A stretch of 32,229 nt of DNA from a bacterium (GTDB lineage: Bacteria; UBP14; UBA6098; 4484-93), in the NCBI GenBank assembly GCA_021158465.1, contig JAGGUN010000021.1, forward strand, positions 1 to 32,229. The letters run 5' to 3'. The number at the start of each line of letters is the position of its first letter. Positions within the stretch are counted from its first letter, which is position 1. The notes under the pieces were generated by a model that ran no database searches, was not told where the DNA came from, and saw only the letters and a list, made by a program, of their open reading frames with translations. The position numbers were made by a program, and so were the translations under genes. This document shows, in pieces, positions 134 to 10,998 of this stretch.

Positions 134-355
134 TCATTTCAGATATACCACCCGCTTTGTTGCTGACCTGTTGCCAGTCGCTGCACGGACAATATAGACA
201 CCGCTGGCGATGGATTCCTCCGGTTTCCAGACCAGATTTGCTGGAGCTGACCGGGGGATGGTTTTGCTCCATAGGCGGTTGCCAAGTAAATCGTATATCT
301 CTATTTCCGCTCCAGCAGGCGCGGCGATGGTAATAGAGGAATTGAAGGGGTTGGG
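134..355 (-). repeat. Sorting-domain DNA repeat, copy A (3' end of the propeller gene)
   Basis: These 222 nt encode the last 73 residues plus stop. By hand alignment they match 8013..8234 on the opposite strand at about 87% (29 differences, no gaps). Runs of perfect identity reach more than 20 nt. The two copies are inverted relative to each other and bound the left 8 kb of the window. Confidence 0.85.
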
Positions 356-2062
356 TTGCACATCGAGGAAGAATGCATTCGGTTTGATAGGCTTTTCCAG
401 AACCGCATCCGTGTCGCAAGAATCAACAGCAACATAGAAATCGCATGTATCGCAGGCATCGAACGGGTCGCAAGCAGTTATCGAAAAGAAAAAGTTCCCA
501 GTATCGGAAGGAATAAATGTAAGCACTGGATATTCAAAACTTGCTCCTGAAGGTGCATCGGCAATGAAATAGAATATGGTATCACCATCGGCATCTTCTG
601 CGGCAACAAATGCCATAAAAGTATCGCCCAAGCATATCGCAGTATCATCGGGACAAACGACAAATTCAGGTGGGGTATTTGTATGTTCGACTGTTACTTG
701 AAATTCGCAGGTATCGCATCCAGAGTAACCATCGCAAGCTGTGATTATAATGTCAAAAATGCCAGTATCGGAAGTGGTAAAAGAGAATTCCGAACCTGCA
801 ATGCTGGCTCCATGTGGCGCATCTATTAGCGAGTATTCTATAACATCGCCGTCGAGGTCGATGGCGAGAAAGTTTGCAACGAGTGTTTCCGACTGAAATA
901 TCGTTGTGTCATTGGGGCAAATCGTGAACACGGGCGGTGTATTCACATCTGGAATCGAATCAATCTTAATGAGATAAATATCTTCATTGCCCGAACCAAA
1001 GGAACAAGTGTAGCCAGTAATAATGTATCCGCCATCGGCGGTTGCTGCAATCGAATACGCGCCATCATTGCCGGTGCCACCAAAAGTTGTGTCCCACATC
1101 ATATAGCCTTCCGAATTGGTCTTAACGAGATAGACATCACTTCCGCCCGCGCCAAAAGATGATGTAAAACCTGCGATTACGAATCCACCATCAGGCGCTT
1201 GAACGACGGAAAAGGCACTATCGGCGCCGCTTCCGCCAAAAGTTCGCGTCCATAGTGTGTCGCCCCATACCGCTATTTTGAGAAGATAGAAATCATAAGA
1301 ACCTGCGCCAAAAGAGTTAGTATAGCCTGCGATTATATAACAGCCGTCCGGGGTCTCTAAAACAGAATAACCCCTGTCATCGTTAGTTCCACCGTACGCT
1401 CTTGTCCAGATTGGGCTGCCTTCTGGATCGGTTTTTATTAAATAAACCTGCTCACCTGAACCGAATGATGATGTATAGCCTGCTATTATATAACCACCGT
1501 CGAGAGTCTTCTGAATTGAACGACCTTCGTCATAGGCGGTGCCACCGAAGGAGTAATGCCATATTTCATGGCCTGTTGAATTATTTCTTTTTACTAAATA
1601 TACATCGCCACCGCTCCAGTTTATATAACCTGCTAATATATATCCACCAGTTTCCTGAAGGATAGAATAAAATGCGCTATGAGTGTGAGCGGCGCCAATC
1701 GTCCAAACAACGCTTCCAGATGAATCCAACCGGATAAGTCTAAATAAGTTTCCATATACGCCTCCTATAACATATCCACTATCTGTTGTTTGAATTATAG
1801 AATAGCCAATATCATTTGAACCCCCGCCACATGTAGTTCCCCAAGAATAAATACCTAAGGAATCTGTCTTAAGAACATAAACATCGCTACTTGTTTCACC
1901 AGTTTCTATTGTCTTTCCTGCAATAGCATATCCGCCATCGTTAGTTTGCACAACGGAATAGCCAATGTCAGTATTGCTACCGCCGAATTGGCGTTGCCAG
2001 TCGGCGAAGGAAAAGCCGGCAAGCGCAAAGACAAGCAAAGCAATGAATAATGTGTTTTTCAT
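134..2062 (-). CDS. Secreted seven-repeat beta-propeller protein with two Ig/cadherin-like domains and a type IX sorting domain
   Basis: The product is about 642 aa. It has an N-terminal signal peptide (MKNTLFIALLVFALAGFSFA). Seven repeats of about 50 residues follow, each with the pattern FGG...D-x-x-x-S-x-x-x-T-x-DGGY-I-I-A-G-x-T...D-x-YL-I-K-x-D, as in delta-60-type propellers. Then come two repeats starting NTPP-x-F with C-P-x-D-T and D-x-D-G-D motifs, which are Ig/cadherin-like. The C-terminal domain holds PNPFNSS, IYDLLGN and GVYIVR, the signature of a type IX secretion sorting domain. I chose the ATG at 2062 because it starts the signal peptide and has AAAGGAG 6 nt upstream. An in-frame upstream extension to 2173 only reads a hexamer repeat and a REP palindrome. 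The substrate or partner is unknown; surface display or secretion is inferred. Confidence 0.85.
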   Translation of the reverse strand: MKNTLFIALLVFALAGFSFADWQRQFGGSNTDIGYSVVQTNDGGYAIAGKTIETGETSSDVYVLKTDSLGIYSWGTTCGGGSNDIGYSIIQTTDSGYVIGGVYGNLFRLIRLDSSGSVVWTIGAAHTHSAFYSILQETGGYILAGYINWSGGDVYLVKRNNSTGHEIWHYSFGGTAYDEGRSIQKTLDGGYIIAGYTSSFGSGEQVYLIKTDPEGSPIWTRAYGGTNDDRGYSVLETPDGCYIIAGYTNSFGAGSYDFYLLKIAVWGDTLWTRTFGGSGADSAFSVVQAPDGGFVIAGFTSSFGAGGSDVYLVKTNSEGYMMWDTTFGGTGNDGAYSIAATADGGYIITGYTCSFGSGNEDIYLIKIDSIPDVNTPPVFTICPNDTTIFQSETLVANFLAIDLDGDVIEYSLIDAPHGASIAGSEFSFTTSDTGIFDIIITACDGYSGCDTCEFQVTVEHTNTPPEFVVCPDDTAICLGDTFMAFVAAEDADGDTIFYFIADAPSGASFEYPVLTFIPSDTGNFFFSITACDPFDACDTCDFYVAVDSCDTDAVLEKPIKPNAFFLDVQPNPFNSSITIAAPAGAEIEIYDLLGNRLWSKTIPRSAPANLVWKPEESIASGVYIVRAATGNRSATKRVVYLK

Positions 2063-2093
2063 GGGATGCTCCTTTTGTTTTATTTGCGGTGTC

Positions 2094-2119
2094 GTAGGGA
2101 CAGACCTATGTGTCTGTCC
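2094..2119 (+). repeat. REP-like palindromic element 1
   Basis: The sequence is GTAGGGACAGAC, a short CTATGT loop, then GTCTGTCC. The arms GGACAGAC and GTCTGTCC pair perfectly (8 bp), and the 5' tail is GTAG. The layout of tetranucleotide head plus GC-rich hairpin is like REP elements moved by RAYT transposases. No RAYT gene is in the window. It falls 32-57 nt upstream of the propeller gene start, so it could also form a hairpin in that mRNA leader. Confidence 0.7.
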
Positions 2120-2126
2120 TTTTGTA

Positions 2127-2162
2127 TTATTCGCATTCTCATTCATATTCGCATTTGCATTC
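2127..2162 (-). repeat. Degenerate hexamer repeat (GAATGC)6 between the two REP-like elements
   Basis: On the minus strand six consecutive hexamers read GAATGC, AAATGC, GAATAT, GAATGA, GAATGC and GAATAA. The block fills almost exactly the space between the two inverted palindromes. Read as protein it would give Asn-Ala/Asn-Met/Glu repeats, which I take to be spurious. Confidence 0.7.
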
Positions 2163-2165
2163 ACA

Positions 2166-2191
2166 GGACGCACACACGGGTGCGTCCCTAC
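2166..2191 (-). repeat. REP-like palindromic element 2, inverted relative to element 1
   Basis: On the minus strand it reads GTAGGGACGCAC, a CCGTGT loop, then GTGCGTCC. The arms GGACGCAC and GTGCGTCC pair perfectly (8 bp). It shares the GTAGGGAC head and GTGT...GTCC tail with element 1, with compensating changes in the stem. Compensated stems argue that the hairpin itself is kept. Confidence 0.7.
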
Positions 2192-5112: not shown

Positions 5113-5168
5113 CCTGCCCCCTTAAGATTTGCTATGATTGCAAAATATAGAAACTTAATCCTATTTTG

Positions 5169-5190
5169 GCAAGAAATATATTTTTCTTGC
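5169..5190. repeat. AT-rich hairpin GCAAGAAA-N6-TTTCTTGC upstream of the sirtuin
   Basis: A perfect 8-bp inverted repeat with a 6-nt AT loop lies 57-78 nt upstream of the sirtuin start and runs into the edge of repeat copy B. It could be an operator or part of the repeated element. Copy A has only a weak CAAGT...ACTTG counterpart at its edge. Confidence 0.4.
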
Positions 5191-5247
5191 AATGGGAGAT
5201 GGGGAATATTACATTGAGAACAAAGAAACGGAGATGGCGCACGAGGC
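5186..5247 (-). repeat. 62-bp interspersed repeat, copy B (inverted relative to copy A)
   Basis: It is the reverse complement of 2303..2364, with 59 of 62 positions identical. The two copies bracket the minus-strand group sirtuin, broken small gene, radical SAM and psd. The similarity drops quickly outside these limits. Confidence 0.85.
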
Positions 5248-5355
5248 AGGGGTGTGCGGTGCGTTATAGTAGGTATATGCAAAATTCTGATATAAACGAG
5301 TTATCTGCTCATTGCGAGCAAAATTAAAAAATGGTTTAGTAAAAGGAGGTGTAAA

Positions 5356-7173
5356 ATGTCAAGAAAAGTAGCAAAGATGCTGGTCAGGAATCGTTCGGTA
5401 GGGCATTATGTGCTCTCTGTGTATTCTCTGCTGTTTCGAGGGTATTGTGTTGATGATAAGAACGATATAATTACTCTCATTGCCCCAAGCCGCTCAATCG
5501 GCAGGACTACAGACTTAGCGAATATGTTGGCAAGAGTCTGCGCACCAGGCTTACTATGGCTCAGTCCAAAAAGGACCAAAATTAGCAATAGATTACAAAA
5601 GGGCGATGTATATCCCAAAGTATCCAACCTGATTGTCAAACTTACCAGTTTTAACCGGAAGCACCCTTCCGGTGACACTATTGACCAGAGCAAGGAAATA
5701 GAAAAAGCCTTTAATAATTATAATGATAGAAGGAAGCAAAAACATGAACCACCTATAAGTAAAGCAGAATATACCGTCATAGAAGCGATAACATCCTATC
5801 GGGAAGAGCATCCTGGTGCCTCATTGGGGGAATTTGAGGCTGCTTTGGGAGATATCCAAAATGAGTTTTTTGATAAAATAGTAAAAGCTATACCTTCCGA
5901 CCAAGCTGAAGGTGGAAAACCTGGTGAACCGCAGAAATTCAATATCTGTGAATTGGAGTTTATTCTTTCAACACTGCTCAAGAAAGGATGTGAGTTATTT
6001 ATTTCTTGTCCTGATGAAATGAATATCGAATTGAAATGGTCTGCTGATGAAAGAAAAAAGTTTGTAGAGGCAAATCCTACACTCCCACCCAACAAAATCA
6101 AGGGTAAAGATATTGAACTTGGCAAAGTATTTTTGGACAATATGAATATAAAATATAAGCCGCTTCTTAAATCTTTGCCAGTAACAGCAGAAACTTGTCA
6201 TTATGTAAAATCTTCTATTGAGGCAGCCTTGATGCGAATGGGGCTGCTTCGGTCCCCCCAATTGGACGAACTTGCCAAAGATATGTGCAGATTTGACGAC
6301 ATCCTTGTTGGACTTGACACTTCCTGCTTTTACCACGGTGTAGTAACAGGGGCGCTATTAGATTCCTTTGTTGGTGTTGCTCGCTATCCCTATTTGGATA
6401 CACCAAACTGGATTACACTCGTTGCAAGTGTAATAAGTACAGGGGAAATAGAACATAAGGCAAATACATCTAAAGATTATTTTGATGACAAAGATACGCA
6501 AGATACTCATAACAGACGGACAGCTTTCCGTGCACTTCAGGAATTTATGGAAATGAGTACCTGTGCGGATTTAGAAGGAGTCGCCACCTTGCTTACCGGA
6601 GAGATATCACCTGATATTGACTTTTCGGGGGACAACACGATTCGGGATGAGTTGATAAGAAAACAGATAAAAAACTTCCTTAGCAATATAGGTTTTCATA
6701 CAGGTACATATTTTCTCACTGGGGATAGGAAATGTGCGATGTTTGCAAGAGCAGAAGGCTTGCATGCAGTTCATCTGAAAAGGAAACCATTAGACACTAC
6801 TAAAGACATTCCTTTAACCGATTTGTCTCCCCAAAACTATGGGGATGAGCGGGATATCCACAATGTTTCAGAGCTTGTCTATGAGCTTGGGATTGAATTT
6901 CCATTGAAAATAACTTGCAAAGGTGAAAATCGTGAATTCCCTGGTTTGTCTTTTATTGTTCGAACCGATTGGCCTGGAAAATCTCTTGAAGAATGGGAGA
7001 ACTGCAATTTTATGGTTAAATTTGTAGAAGACGGTGAAAATATGTATAACCAGTTCTACGATTGCTTAGAGAAAAATGCTAAAGCCGTAGAACTGGGTCA
7101 ATTGCTCTGGGGCTGGAAGCAAGTAAATGCCAGACACCACGAAGAACCAGGCTATCCAGGCTGGGCAACATAA
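5356..7173 (+). CDS. Large PIN-domain protein of unknown family (putative RNase)
   Basis: I do not recognise the full 605-aa protein. Its second half looks like a PIN nuclease fold. It has a hydrophobic strand ending in an acidic residue (ILVGLDTSCF, Asp321), an internal acidic pair in ISTGEIEHKA (Glu364/Glu366), and a late strand YFLTGDRKCAMFARAEGLHAV (Asp457) like the T-x-D motif of PIN proteins. Residues 1-310 and 490-605 show no family I can name; 150-260 are charged and probably helical. There is no signal peptide. AGGAGG lies 6 nt before the ATG. The gene is visibly AT-richer than the genes on either side and is followed by a methyltransferase, so it looks acquired. Defence or RNA processing are possible roles, neither shown. 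Confidence 0.55.
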   Translation: MSRKVAKMLVRNRSVGHYVLSVYSLLFRGYCVDDKNDIITLIAPSRSIGRTTDLANMLARVCAPGLLWLSPKRTKISNRLQKGDVYPKVSNLIVKLTSFNRKHPSGDTIDQSKEIEKAFNNYNDRRKQKHEPPISKAEYTVIEAITSYREEHPGASLGEFEAALGDIQNEFFDKIVKAIPSDQAEGGKPGEPQKFNICELEFILSTLLKKGCELFISCPDEMNIELKWSADERKKFVEANPTLPPNKIKGKDIELGKVFLDNMNIKYKPLLKSLPVTAETCHYVKSSIEAALMRMGLLRSPQLDELAKDMCRFDDILVGLDTSCFYHGVVTGALLDSFVGVARYPYLDTPNWITLVASVISTGEIEHKANTSKDYFDDKDTQDTHNRRTAFRALQEFMEMSTCADLEGVATLLTGEISPDIDFSGDNTIRDELIRKQIKNFLSNIGFHTGTYFLTGDRKCAMFARAEGLHAVHLKRKPLDTTKDIPLTDLSPQNYGDERDIHNVSELVYELGIEFPLKITCKGENREFPGLSFIVRTDWPGKSLEEWENCNFMVKFVEDGENMYNQFYDCLEKNAKAVELGQLLWGWKQVNARHHEEPGYPGWAT

Positions 7174-7248
7174 GTTGAATTCAGTAAGGTATAGGAGTTA
7201 ATATGTTTTAGAAACAAACTGTTGAAATATGAGCAACTAGGAGGCGAT

Positions 7249-7992
7249 ATGACCGGCAAAAAAATGAATAATCCTTATATTCAGCTCTGGTATGAAATGG
7301 TAGAGCACTACTTAAAAATATATCTCCCCAAAAGCGGAAAAATATTGGATGCGGGAGGTGGCACAGGCGAATTTAGCATAAGAGTTGCCAACATAAATGA
7401 GAATCTAAAGATAATAAACTGCGATATATCGGAGGGAATGTTAAGAAGAGCGCAGGAGAAAATCGAAGAGATGAAGTTACAGGAAAGGATTGAAAATAAG
7501 ATTTGCGATATAATGGATTTGCCGTTTGAAAATTGCCAGTTCGATTATGTTATGTGTTTGGGAGATGCTTTCAGTTTTTGCAAAAATACTGAAAAAGCTT
7601 TTAGTGAACTTGTGAGGGTGACCAAGCCTTCCGGAAAGATTCACTTATCAGTTAACGCCTTTTGGGGAAATTTCTTTGAGATGATGGCAAAAGGTCCGAG
7701 CGAAAAGATTTACTTTGAAGATTTGATGAATTATTACCAAACTCGTATAATTCACCAGGACCATAAGTCGACAGGATGCAGGAGTTTCACGGCAGAGGAA
7801 TTAGAAAGAATGGGAATGCAACATAACCTTAGTGTAATTAAAAAGTTTGTCGCACCAGTTTTTGGGGTCTATAGCAAATGGTTTAATGACACAGAAAAGT
7901 TAGACACAATAAAGAAATTACAATATAGGCATTGTGAAGACAAAAACTTGATTAATTTTGGAAATCATTTGAATTTTATTTTTGAAAAATGA
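7249..7992 (+). CDS. Class I SAM-dependent methyltransferase (Methyltransf_11/UbiE-like)
   Basis: The 247-aa product has motif I ILDAGGGTGEFS (32-43), an acidic residue after strand 2 (NCDIS, Asp59), CDIMDLPF (86-93) and the post-motif LVRVTKPSGKIHLSV. The substrate is unknown. I use the ATG at 7249, which has AGGAGG 4-5 nt upstream, instead of an in-frame TTG at 7222. It follows the PIN gene after 75 nt and shares its AT-rich composition, so the two probably came together. Its stop TGA overlaps the ATG of an orphan sorting domain (ATGA). This places the junction between foreign-looking and native-looking DNA at about 7990-8013. Confidence 0.8.
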   Translation: MTGKKMNNPYIQLWYEMVEHYLKIYLPKSGKILDAGGGTGEFSIRVANINENLKIINCDISEGMLRRAQEKIEEMKLQERIENKICDIMDLPFENCQFDYVMCLGDAFSFCKNTEKAFSELVRVTKPSGKIHLSVNAFWGNFFEMMAKGPSEKIYFEDLMNYYQTRIIHQDHKSTGCRSFTAEELERMGMQHNLSVIKKFVAPVFGVYSKWFNDTEKLDTIKKLQYRHCEDKNLINFGNHLNFIFEK

Positions 7993-8234
7993 TTACTTCC
8001 GTTAGGCAAAATCCCAATCCCTTCAATTCTTCTGTCGCCATCAGTGCGCCTGCTGGAGCAGAAATAGAGATATATGATTTACTTGGCAACCGTGTATGGA
8101 GTGAAGTTGTCCCCCGGTCAGCTCAAGCAAATCTGGTCTGGAAACCGGAGGAAAACATCGCCAGCGGTGTCTATATTGTCCGTGCAACAGCTGGCAACAG
8201 GTCAGCGACAAAGCGGGTCGTGTATCTGAAATAG
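7989..8234 (+). pseudogene. Orphan type IX sorting domain (3' remnant of a secreted-protein gene)
   Basis: The 81-codon frame encodes only a C-terminal sorting domain: NPNPFNSS, EIYDLLGNRVW, SGVYIVRA, ending VVYLK. It has no signal peptide and no passenger domain, so it cannot act as a normal type IX cargo. The last 222 nt are about 87% identical to the end of the propeller gene at 134..355 on the other strand. The first 8 codons match nothing I recognise. The simplest reading is that a secreted-protein gene lost its front part when the PIN/methyltransferase DNA arrived. A made peptide coupled to the methyltransferase through ATGA is the alternative. Confidence 0.7.
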
Positions 8235-8248
8235 CCAGCAGGCTCTAA

Positions 8249-10951
8249 TCACTTCAAATAAAGCAATCTACCCGATAGCTTGGCTCTCTCTGTCGAGGCA
8301 AGGTATATCCCCGATGAGAGATTATCAGGCTTCCAGAGAATTGAATTGTTACCCCCTGCAAGCTCGAAACGGGCAACCATCTCACCTTTTATATTGTAAA
8401 TCGACAGTTCATCATCGGTAGGAACGGAAATCTCGAGCCTGCAAGCCGAATTGAACGGATTGGGACAGACAACAAGCGATACCCTCTCGGGAACATTCTC
8501 ACCCTCGACATCGAGCGGAGAGACATAATGCCACCAGGCGGCATCGAACGCTATCCAGTCCCCCTGATGACCTGTCATATCACCGAGGTAAAGTTTCTCG
8601 GAGGCGTCTCCTGTGAAAGGATAAGTCCCGAGCGAGACCCATTCATTATAATATACAGATTGGTCGACCACTACGACCGCCTCGCCGTCCCGATAACGGA
8701 TGCGATACCGAGCTCGTGCGGTCGCGTGATTATCAGGGATATAAACGAGCAGTTCATAGTTTCCCGGCGCCAGCAGGACAGGATACCACTCGACATAGCA
8801 GGTATCGGCACCCTCGGTGGAGTATGTCCACCAGAAATGGCTATTGTATCCGCCCGAGCCGTTATGCCAGAAGGAAACATCACCATACCTATGAAAACCG
8901 CTTTCGCCATCATCGACAATAGTATCGGAAACTGCTTCACCCCTCAGGCTGAACAGCATCGCATCGCAGCCGAGATAATCGCCCGTTGTCCCCGTCACAT
9001 CGCCAATATAGATGTAATCACCATCGGCAAAATTGTATGTCCCAAGCGACACCCATTCATCAGAGTATGCCGATTGGTCAACCTCGATTATCGTCTCACC
9101 GCCGGAATGGTGAATGATATAGCTTGCATTCGCCGTGGCATAGCTGCTCGGGATATAGGCAAAAACCTCATACTCCCCTTCTGCTGGAAGCTCGGGTGTC
9201 CAGATGGCATAATTGACATCATCGCCTGACGCAACGGTCCTCGTCCAGTAAATATGATGTTCATATCCACCTGCCCAGGCACGCCAGTATTCGGGCGGTC
9301 CATAATACTCAAAGCCGTCCGATAGGTCATCGACAAGCGTATCGGCGGCAGGCGGAGTGTAAGAATGCCTTGCGATGAATAACTGCCTGACATCGAGTTC
9401 AACCAGCCCATTGTCGTACCCTGGCCAATCGTAAAAGCAAGCCTCTCCGTTGTACTGCCCCCAAGGGGATGTATTCGCATCGCCGTATGGGTCATTGGAG
9501 ATGATTATATGGTTGTAAGCATACCCCCTGAAACATTGAATATGCCCGTGCCCAATGGTATTTGTGGATGCGACGACAGGGTATCCAGCATCTATCTCGC
9601 CTGTGAATGTTGTCCAGGAAACCGCCGCCTGCCAGGATGAGAGCGTATGCTGAGATAGGAAATCGACCATATAAGCCCAGACAGCTCCTCCATACTCCCG
9701 ACAGATGAAGCCGTGGGCACCGGGAACCCAGACATCCCCCGCGGCAAGACCGAGTATATCGTATGTGTAGCCGTTGAATGTGTATTCATTCGGAACATAC
9801 CAGCCAAAGTTGTGGGTATGAGAATACGGATAGGAACAGGTTATCGGATGCTCGGGCAGGATGGAATACCTCTGGACAGCCATCAGGCAGGAGGATGGAC
9901 CACAGCTCCAGCTACCGTTGAACCAATCGGGTGTATCCCATTTCTGGTGGAGGTACGGCACCCAGATGTCTGACTTCGGACTATGTGCAAATTCTGGCGG
10001 CTCGGAGTACGGGCAATCTGCACCATCGGCAACAACTGTTACATTCGATAATGAGACTTTCTCACTCCTCATTATATCAGCTCGATATACATCCCCATCA
10101 GGCAAAGAGACAAAGGATAGATAATCTCCATTTGGAGAAACCACAGGAAAAGCCTCGTGAAGATTATCTGTCGATGTAATAGAATATTTTCCTTTCCCTG
10201 GCGTCCAATACCAGATATCGGAGCTTATAATCTCATAGTTTGCCTCATCGGTCAGCTGAACAAAAACGCCATCTCCTCTCGTGTCCCAGACGGGATTTCT
10301 ACCACCGGGAAATGTAAAGATCTCTTTCGTCGCGACATCGACAACGACAACAGTATCCATTCCAGACAGTGCGATAAATCTGCCATCGGTGGAAAATTTT
10401 GGCTTAAAACCAGACTCCTGAAGGATGCGGGAGACCTCCTCTGTTCTTATATCGAATATGCAAAGATACCCATCATCATCGACGAAGGCAAAGCGGGAAC
10501 CCACCGTGTCAACAGTTACCCACTGAATAGGGATACCGATGCTGTATCGTCGGACAACCCCTCCGTTATTCAGGAGAAGAACCTCATCTCCATACGGGAC
10601 AATAATTCTACCCCCTCCAGCAGGCTGCATAATCCCGCAGCTCTCAACAGGCGGAAGAAACCTTTTTGCCTTGCCCGTAGAAAATCGATAAACATAGGGA
10701 GCTTGACCATCCGATGTTATCCTTTTGAAGAAGAGGATATCCCCGTGGATAGCCTTGTACCTCCCGCGATACTCATTCTGGCAACCGAGCGACGATACAT
10801 CGTTCTCGAGCAGGAAGAGCCCGCTACCCCGATAGTCGCTTGCAATTATCTGCCCATTATCGGTAACCAACGGATAACCGAAACCCTCCATCCCACAGGA
10901 TGGAACAACCCAAACAAAAAAGATTACCGATAAAAGAAGGAATGTTCTCAT
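8249..10951 (-). CDS. Secreted propeller / C39-like cysteine peptidase / golvesin-domain protein with sorting domain
   Basis: The 900-aa product begins with a hydrophobic signal (1-19). A WD40/TolB-like propeller spans about 30-300. A papain-like C39-type domain (about 325-530) has SCGPSSC (Cys350), GHGHIQC (His468/His470) and SNDPYG (Asp487), the spacing expected for a Cys-His-Asp triad. Two golvesin/xanthan-lyase-like beta domains follow (about 538-670 and 677-810), each starting with a VDD motif and carrying VDQS-x-Y...EWVSLGTY. A sorting domain closes it (CPNPFNSA to LLYLK). Start ATG 10951 is supported by the signal peptide and by a very good promoter just upstream. It is probably surface-bound or secreted and may cleave peptides or cell-wall material. 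It converges on the orphan sorting domain with 14 nt between. Confidence 0.75.
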   Translation of the reverse strand: MRTFLLLSVIFFVWVVPSCGMEGFGYPLVTDNGQIIASDYRGSGLFLLENDVSSLGCQNEYRGRYKAIHGDILFFKRITSDGQAPYVYRFSTGKAKRFLPPVESCGIMQPAGGGRIIVPYGDEVLLLNNGGVVRRYSIGIPIQWVTVDTVGSRFAFVDDDGYLCIFDIRTEEVSRILQESGFKPKFSTDGRFIALSGMDTVVVVDVATKEIFTFPGGRNPVWDTRGDGVFVQLTDEANYEIISSDIWYWTPGKGKYSITSTDNLHEAFPVVSPNGDYLSFVSLPDGDVYRADIMRSEKVSLSNVTVVADGADCPYSEPPEFAHSPKSDIWVPYLHQKWDTPDWFNGSWSCGPSSCLMAVQRYSILPEHPITCSYPYSHTHNFGWYVPNEYTFNGYTYDILGLAAGDVWVPGAHGFICREYGGAVWAYMVDFLSQHTLSSWQAAVSWTTFTGEIDAGYPVVASTNTIGHGHIQCFRGYAYNHIIISNDPYGDANTSPWGQYNGEACFYDWPGYDNGLVELDVRQLFIARHSYTPPAADTLVDDLSDGFEYYGPPEYWRAWAGGYEHHIYWTRTVASGDDVNYAIWTPELPAEGEYEVFAYIPSSYATANASYIIHHSGGETIIEVDQSAYSDEWVSLGTYNFADGDYIYIGDVTGTTGDYLGCDAMLFSLRGEAVSDTIVDDGESGFHRYGDVSFWHNGSGGYNSHFWWTYSTEGADTCYVEWYPVLLAPGNYELLVYIPDNHATARARYRIRYRDGEAVVVVDQSVYYNEWVSLGTYPFTGDASEKLYLGDMTGHQGDWIAFDAAWWHYVSPLDVEGENVPERVSLVVCPNPFNSACRLEISVPTDDELSIYNIKGEMVARFELAGGNNSILWKPDNLSSGIYLASTERAKLSGRLLYLK

Positions 10952-10969
10952 ACAATCTTCCCTTTTTGA

Positions 10970-10998
10970 ATTGTAGCAAAGCGGAAGCAAATAGTCAA
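10970..10998 (-). promoter_or_regulatory. Sigma-70-type promoter for the C39-like protein gene
   Basis: On the minus strand TTGACT, a 17-bp spacer and TACAAT are seen. The expected start is about 12 nt before the ATG, giving an unusually short leader with only a weak GGGAAG-type ribosome site. Confidence 0.7.

Follow-up and report, generated by a model that had tools for sequence, protein, structure and literature searches.

Genes and features of the locus

The window analyzed here is the entire contig C49 (32,229 bases), one of the 54 contigs that make up a 2.04-Mb genome, and it belongs to a phylum of which 17 genomes were examined. It carries two consecutive genes, encoding a 605-aa protein (P0001, the product of the putative PIN gene) and a class I methyltransferase, between two stretches of DNA that match parts of the T9SS gene g134 (Table 1). 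The P0001 reading frame opens with an ATG at 5356, ahead of which lies a strong Shine-Dalgarno sequence, AAAGGAGGTG. For the methyltransferase, the in-frame ATG at 7249 is preceded by GGAGG at 7240 to 7244 and is a better start than the TTG at 7222, so that the protein is probably 247 aa long. Both open reading frames named in the initial annotation are thereby confirmed. The two genes also have a base composition unlike that of their neighbors, as had been noted: G+C is 0.406 in the PIN gene (GC3, 0.361) and 0.357 in the methyltransferase gene (GC3, 0.397), versus 0.45 to 0.51 in the 20 other window genes tested, with the orphan tail ORF (0.488) counted separately. Third-position G+C lies between 0.48 and 0.58 in 19 of these 20 genes, the exception being g134 (0.393). 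The codon-usage scores of the PIN gene and the methyltransferase gene (-0.068 and -0.078) are the lowest among the 23 window ORFs, and that of g134 (-0.062) is close to both.

Table 1. Features of the locus and of the related neighbor g134, in positions of the window
Feature	Positions	Strand	Remarks
g134, DUF5122-type protein with T9SS tail	134-2173	-	Intact neighbor; matches both relics (136-355; 2303-2374)
Relic of DNA upstream of a g134-like T9SS gene	5176-5247	+	72 nt; 90% inverted copy of 2303-2374; breaks off at 5247
Leader module, left end of cassette	5249-5305	+	57 bp here, 58 bp in G010; 90% identical to L056:3491-3548
605-aa orphan protein P0001 (putative PIN gene)	5356-7173	+	PIN-like core, about residues 311-480; no known family for 1-310 and 485-605
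Codons D321 to D457	6316-6726	+	Putative PIN active site D321, E364/E366, D431, D457, from sequence reading
Class I SAM methyltransferase, UbiE-like	7222-7992	+	ORF of 256 aa; probable start ATG 7249
Orphan T9SS C-terminal sorting domain	7989-8234	+	PF18962, E = 3e-8; homology to other tails from about 8011-8013

The boundaries of the AT-rich DNA could be placed with the help of the two relics. The DNA matching the left relic lies 130 to 200 nt upstream of g134, and positions 8013 to 8232 are an 88% inverted copy of the g134 T9SS tail. On the plus strand, the relic of the upstream region comes first and that of the tail second, 2,765 nt apart versus 1,947 nt in g134, an order and orientation suggesting that the site probably once held a g134-like gene whose body the cassette replaced. 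The left end of the cassette, at 5248/5249, is fixed twice, since the break in the relic agrees with the point at which homology to a second genome (G010) begins; the right junction falls at 7993 to 8012, and both ends adjoin relics of one native paralogue. The broken native gene suspected 3′ of the methyltransferase turned out to be an orphan T9SS sorting domain. Among the tails read, it is the only bodyless ORF within a contig, those of L014 and L018 running off contig ends and those of L015, L020, and L021 being cut by contig or stretch edges. Thus, the composition, the boundaries, and the leader and methyltransferase common to G010 support the prediction that positions 5249 to about 8012 are a horizontally acquired, AT-rich cassette, and the earlier impression of mobile cargo beside a broken gene is upheld by the composition and by the placement of both ends next to relics.

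Several further observations were made on the T9SS genes. When the tails at 136 to 355 and 8013 to 8232 and in loci L013 to L022 were compared, the DNA of the C-terminal tails (up to about 220 bp) was found as 70 to 89% identical repeats in many genes of genomes G000 and G001, often at contig ends, a pattern that points to gene conversion at the tails and to assemblies breaking there. The methyltransferase stop codon overlaps the ATG of the orphan tail ORF (ATGA, 7989 to 7992), so that the relic could be translated by coupling. Downstream, positions 8249 to 10990 encode a secreted protein with a C39-like peptidase domain, Golvesin C-terminal domains in two stretches, and a T9SS tail.

P0001 and the PIN assignment

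Relatives of P0001 were sought at several phylogenetic distances. At an E value of 0.001, only P0001 itself was found in its own genome, 41 genomes, 17 genomes of the class, 17 of the phylum, and 386 relatives, and no match was found in 195 genomes of another phylum (that of G043). Relaxing the E value to 1 in the class genomes added three places, all of which were rejected: G000:C24 (E = 0.05) is antisense to a T9SS-type ORF, and G001:C37 (E = 0.064) and G000:C13 (E = 0.11) are 78-codon matches at chance level. Searches of 72,556 plasmids and 50,697 phages with tblastn returned nothing for the whole protein at E = 1 or for residues 301 to 605 at E = 10; for the N-terminal part at E = 10, there were two matches only (E = 3 to 7). 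Peptide-pattern scans (six of IMG/VR and two of genome contigs), whose reach is limited to close relatives, yielded stretches that fitted the patterns in all but one scan, and none was confirmed as a relative. Profile searches of several libraries likewise bear out the earlier statement that no known family accounts for residues 1 to 310 or the tail: Pfam, NCBIfam, PHROGs, PADLOC, and PDB sequences gave nothing beyond an E value of about 0.08. Within the reach of these searches, P0001 is a real, unrecognized orphan protein with no detected relative.

The proposal that the protein contains a PIN domain is weakly supported. The acidic residues on which it was based, D321, E364/E366, and D457, are present in order, and a further one, D431, located 26 residues before D457, had been overlooked; the profile matches remained under their cut-offs. 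The sole Pfam match of whole P0001 at E = 1 is PIN_4 (E = 0.1, 13.3 bits), and residues 301 to 490 alone have PIN_4 (PF13638) as their top match (E = 0.02, 15.6 bits), both below the gathering cut-off of 21.9 bits. PIN_4 covers PhoH-type and TRAM-type PIN domains. In NCBIfam, the sole match of the whole protein is PRK13764 (NF010335, “ATPase”; E = 0.077), which is also the top match of residues 301 to 490 (E = 0.0083; residues 359 to 480 versus model positions 21 to 136), at 14.7 bits versus a curated cut-off of 340. We take the N terminus of PRK13764 to be a PIN domain.

Additional comparisons gave a mixed picture. A PIN-like motif pattern, composed after the sequence was seen, fits P0001 as the only one of the 23 window ORFs; it also fits 21 of 28 PIN_4 domains and 1 of 2000 shuffles. 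A PIN_4 model of our own, made from 28 of the 30 loci fetched (L043 and L051 [partial] were excluded), gave residues 301 to 490 a score of 3.5 bits, which about a dozen of 2,500 shuffles exceeded, and whole P0001 only 1.0 bit, which put it at about line 100 of the score table. Profile-profile comparisons (hhalign) with three PIN alignments were not significant, the real score being attained by 10, 39, and 7 of 150 shuffles. The PIN fold is an alpha/beta/alpha arrangement with a central parallel sheet; AlphaFold models made without homologues reached a pLDDT of 37.4 for whole P0001 and 32.8 for residues 301 to 490, too low for a fold search. Because of the subthreshold scores, the shuffle results, and the low pLDDT, we term P0001 PIN-like, a description that is plausible and not proven, and do not assign it to PIN_4. 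Residues 301 to 490 quite probably adopt a PIN fold, and the assignment of P0001 as a nuclease is made with moderate confidence.

The methyltransferase and its leader

The second gene was correctly recognized as a class I methyltransferase (Methyltransf_25, PF13649; E = 9e-20) and appears to be a generic, UbiE-like one. DNA and RNA amino-methyltransferases are marked by motif IV, [NDS]PP[YFW], which is not present in this protein, since it lacks any PP dipeptide. At E = 1e-20, the methyltransferase was found in 2 of 386 genomes, its own and G010, which belongs to the same class and another family. The two copies share 94% DNA identity over 542 nt and 166 of 175 residues; because this identity spans different families, it points to horizontal transfer. 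The dN/dS ratio between them, 0.073 over 175 codons, denotes purifying selection and thus argues for a functional gene. No methyltransferase match was found in IMG/VR. Relative to G010, the methyltransferase N terminus is remodeled at 7222 to 7275, with ATG changed to TTG, small indels, and an extra A in an A run; the remodeled N terminus has a Shine-Dalgarno sequence and the ATG at 7249.

The neighborhood of the methyltransferase in G010 differs from that in the window. Upstream of the G010 copy is a divergent gene read as a GH57-type enzyme, no PIN gene adjoins, and genome searches at E = 0.001 did not find P0001 in G010. The G010 contig (C194, L056) is just 4,136 bases long and stops inside the methyltransferase, so that the right side lies beyond the contig. 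Possible explanations for the shared methyltransferase and leader (L056:3491-4136) are transfer inside the phylum or a mis-binned 4.1-kb contig.

The leader sits directly 5′ of the methyltransferase in G010, and in the window it is 5′ of the PIN gene and 1.9 kb ahead of the methyltransferase. The homology between the two leaders ends sharply at both sides. Across 98 genomes, copies of the leader beyond chance were confined to the window (with 2303 to 2364, the partner of the adjoining relic) and G010, and an exact search of IMG/VR for the leader core returned 0 matches. A 22-nt match in G001 was discarded as a leader copy, as it is within a long coding frame.

Known types of element were also considered for the leader. 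Integron attC sites carry a core pair, RYYYAAC and GTTRRRY, in a folding strand; the window contains 0 core pairs at a spacing of 45 to 140 nt, and the folding of the leader and spacer is ordinary. Xer/dif modules carry dif-like XerC/XerD arms at their end, and the top score of the leader with E. coli dif arms was tied with three other window places, and its rank against an own consensus was 26th. Both types were therefore rejected for the leader. An RNA element was also rejected, with a chance match to mir-384 only (E = 0.18; 26 bits versus a gathering score of 72). A second copy of the leader in the spacer between the PIN and methyltransferase genes was not supported, since 1584 of 2000 shuffles matched equally well.

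Origin and function of the cassette

We favor, with a probability of about 0.55, the reading that the locus is an acquired cassette with a gene for a PIN-type endoribonuclease and an independent methyltransferase. The AT-rich DNA would have been acquired horizontally and would have replaced the body of a gene for a T9SS-exported surface protein, a g134 paralogue. The first gene most likely encodes a divalent-metal-dependent endoribonuclease, whose fold, activity, and RNA substrate we infer: D321, E364/E366, D431, and D457 would hold Mg2+ or Mn2+ and cut single-stranded RNA, and selection or gating of the substrate would fall to the N-terminal 310 and the C-terminal 115 residues. The second gene would be a functional UbiE-like methyltransferase that moves together with its 58-bp leader and is not dependent on the nuclease. 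On the simplest reading, the leader and methyltransferase are the older unit, and the PIN gene was either inserted between them or lost from the G010 lineage.

Alternatives to this reading concern either the nature of P0001 or the origin of the locus. P0001 may be no PIN protein at all, but an orphan of unknown fold with acidic residues that imitate the PIN arrangement; the profile scores under cut-off, the nonsignificant hhalign comparisons, and the unusable AlphaFold models are what this account would lead one to expect, yet the best matches of two libraries are PIN-containing models that coincide in position and lie in the expected register, and the motif pattern is rare among shuffles, so that we consider it improbable, though the most serious competitor. 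We regard it as unlikely that P0001 is a toxin or abortive-infection effector, in which the PIN domain would be a growth-stopping RNase and the N-terminal 310 residues a sensor or inhibitor, carried by a selfish or defense gene. The PIN-like core, accessory location, foreign composition, and autonomous gene with its strong Shine-Dalgarno sequence would suit such an effector, as would the size of P0001, which is unusual among the PIN proteins known to us. However, no convincing small upstream frame for a VapB-like antitoxin was found next to the PIN gene (the other plus-strand frames of at least 20 aa overlapping 5113 to 5360, of 34, 27, 53, and 25 aa, look like chance), the downstream gene being the methyltransferase. 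Nor was a relative found on the plasmids and phages or in the IMG/VR peptide scans, and P0001 has no PADLOC match. The defense role that had been suggested also lost ground in that the other window genes with Pfam matches are housekeeping or secreted-protein genes, with no defense gene among them. The methyltransferase obtained only methyltransferase-domain matches in PADLOC, to mad2 (E = 4e-19, model positions 258 to 430 of 492) and MTase_II (E = 0.003), and we read the former as the generic SAM-binding part.

The functional pairing of nuclease and modifier raised as a possibility in the initial annotation is very unlikely, whether conceived as a restriction-modification-like system or as RNA cutting with self-protection by methylation. 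The two AT-rich genes lie on the same strand with a gap of 48 to 75 nt and no terminator-like site between them; nevertheless, the sole independent occurrence of the methyltransferase, the 94% copy that follows the leader in G010, lacks the PIN gene, so the pair is not supported as a unit, and the enzyme is without [NDS]PP[YFW], is nearest in the PDB to a UbiE-related protein, and differs from its neighbor in G+C (0.406 versus 0.357). We give similarly little weight to a non-integron capture system, in which the 58-bp leader would be a fixed recombination end behind which unrelated AT-rich genes are inserted ahead of an older resident gene, combined with P0001 as founder of a new multi-domain RNase family with a built-in N-terminal regulatory domain. 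Least probable is an assembly artifact that joined the cassette to the locus at repeats. T9SS-tail repeats do occur at contig ends, and 68 nt of the orphan tail recur without mismatch at the end of C12 (L014), but these 68 nt are within the tail, downstream of the cassette junction, and exact identity in the two flanking inverted repeats extends over 29 to 31 nt at most. Moreover, the two relics are arranged and oriented as parts of one g134 paralogue would be, and the leader and methyltransferase occur together in a second genome.

Orphan accessory genes that bear a weak nuclease signature are often encountered, and P0001 is a curious orphan gene beside an ordinary methyltransferase, not a demonstrated two-part system. 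If residues 311 to 480 are a PIN nuclease, P0001 would represent a large multi-domain PIN architecture without a detected relative, with flanking parts that might be novel domains for RNA targeting or gating. The cassette would also be a clear-cut example of horizontal gene replacement within a gene for a T9SS surface protein.

Compared with known systems, P0001 most resembles PIN_4 domains in the order of its acidic residues; its “LDTS,” “GEIEHK,” and “LTGDRK..FARAEGL” resemble D-T, E-L-d, and T-x-D...A...G in an alignment of 28 PIN_4 sequences. It differs from PIN_4 in a D321-E366 spacing longer than in this alignment, in its score under the gathering cut-off, and in its unmatched 310-residue N-terminal and 115-residue C-terminal parts. 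PRK13764 is the best NCBIfam match, although the rest of that model is unmatched. VapC toxins are roughly 130 aa long, in contrast to the 605 aa of P0001, which has neither an antitoxin gene nor a family match. The putative active-site residues of P0001 resemble the widely spaced acidic set D, E, D, D/N described for PIN/VapC proteins (PMC7180214). The methyltransferase differs from UbiE/MenG-like class I enzymes in falling under all NCBIfam cut-offs shown, and its residues 17 to 256 align with UbiE-related PDB entry 2avn, the nearest in the PDB, with an E value of 1.7e-17.
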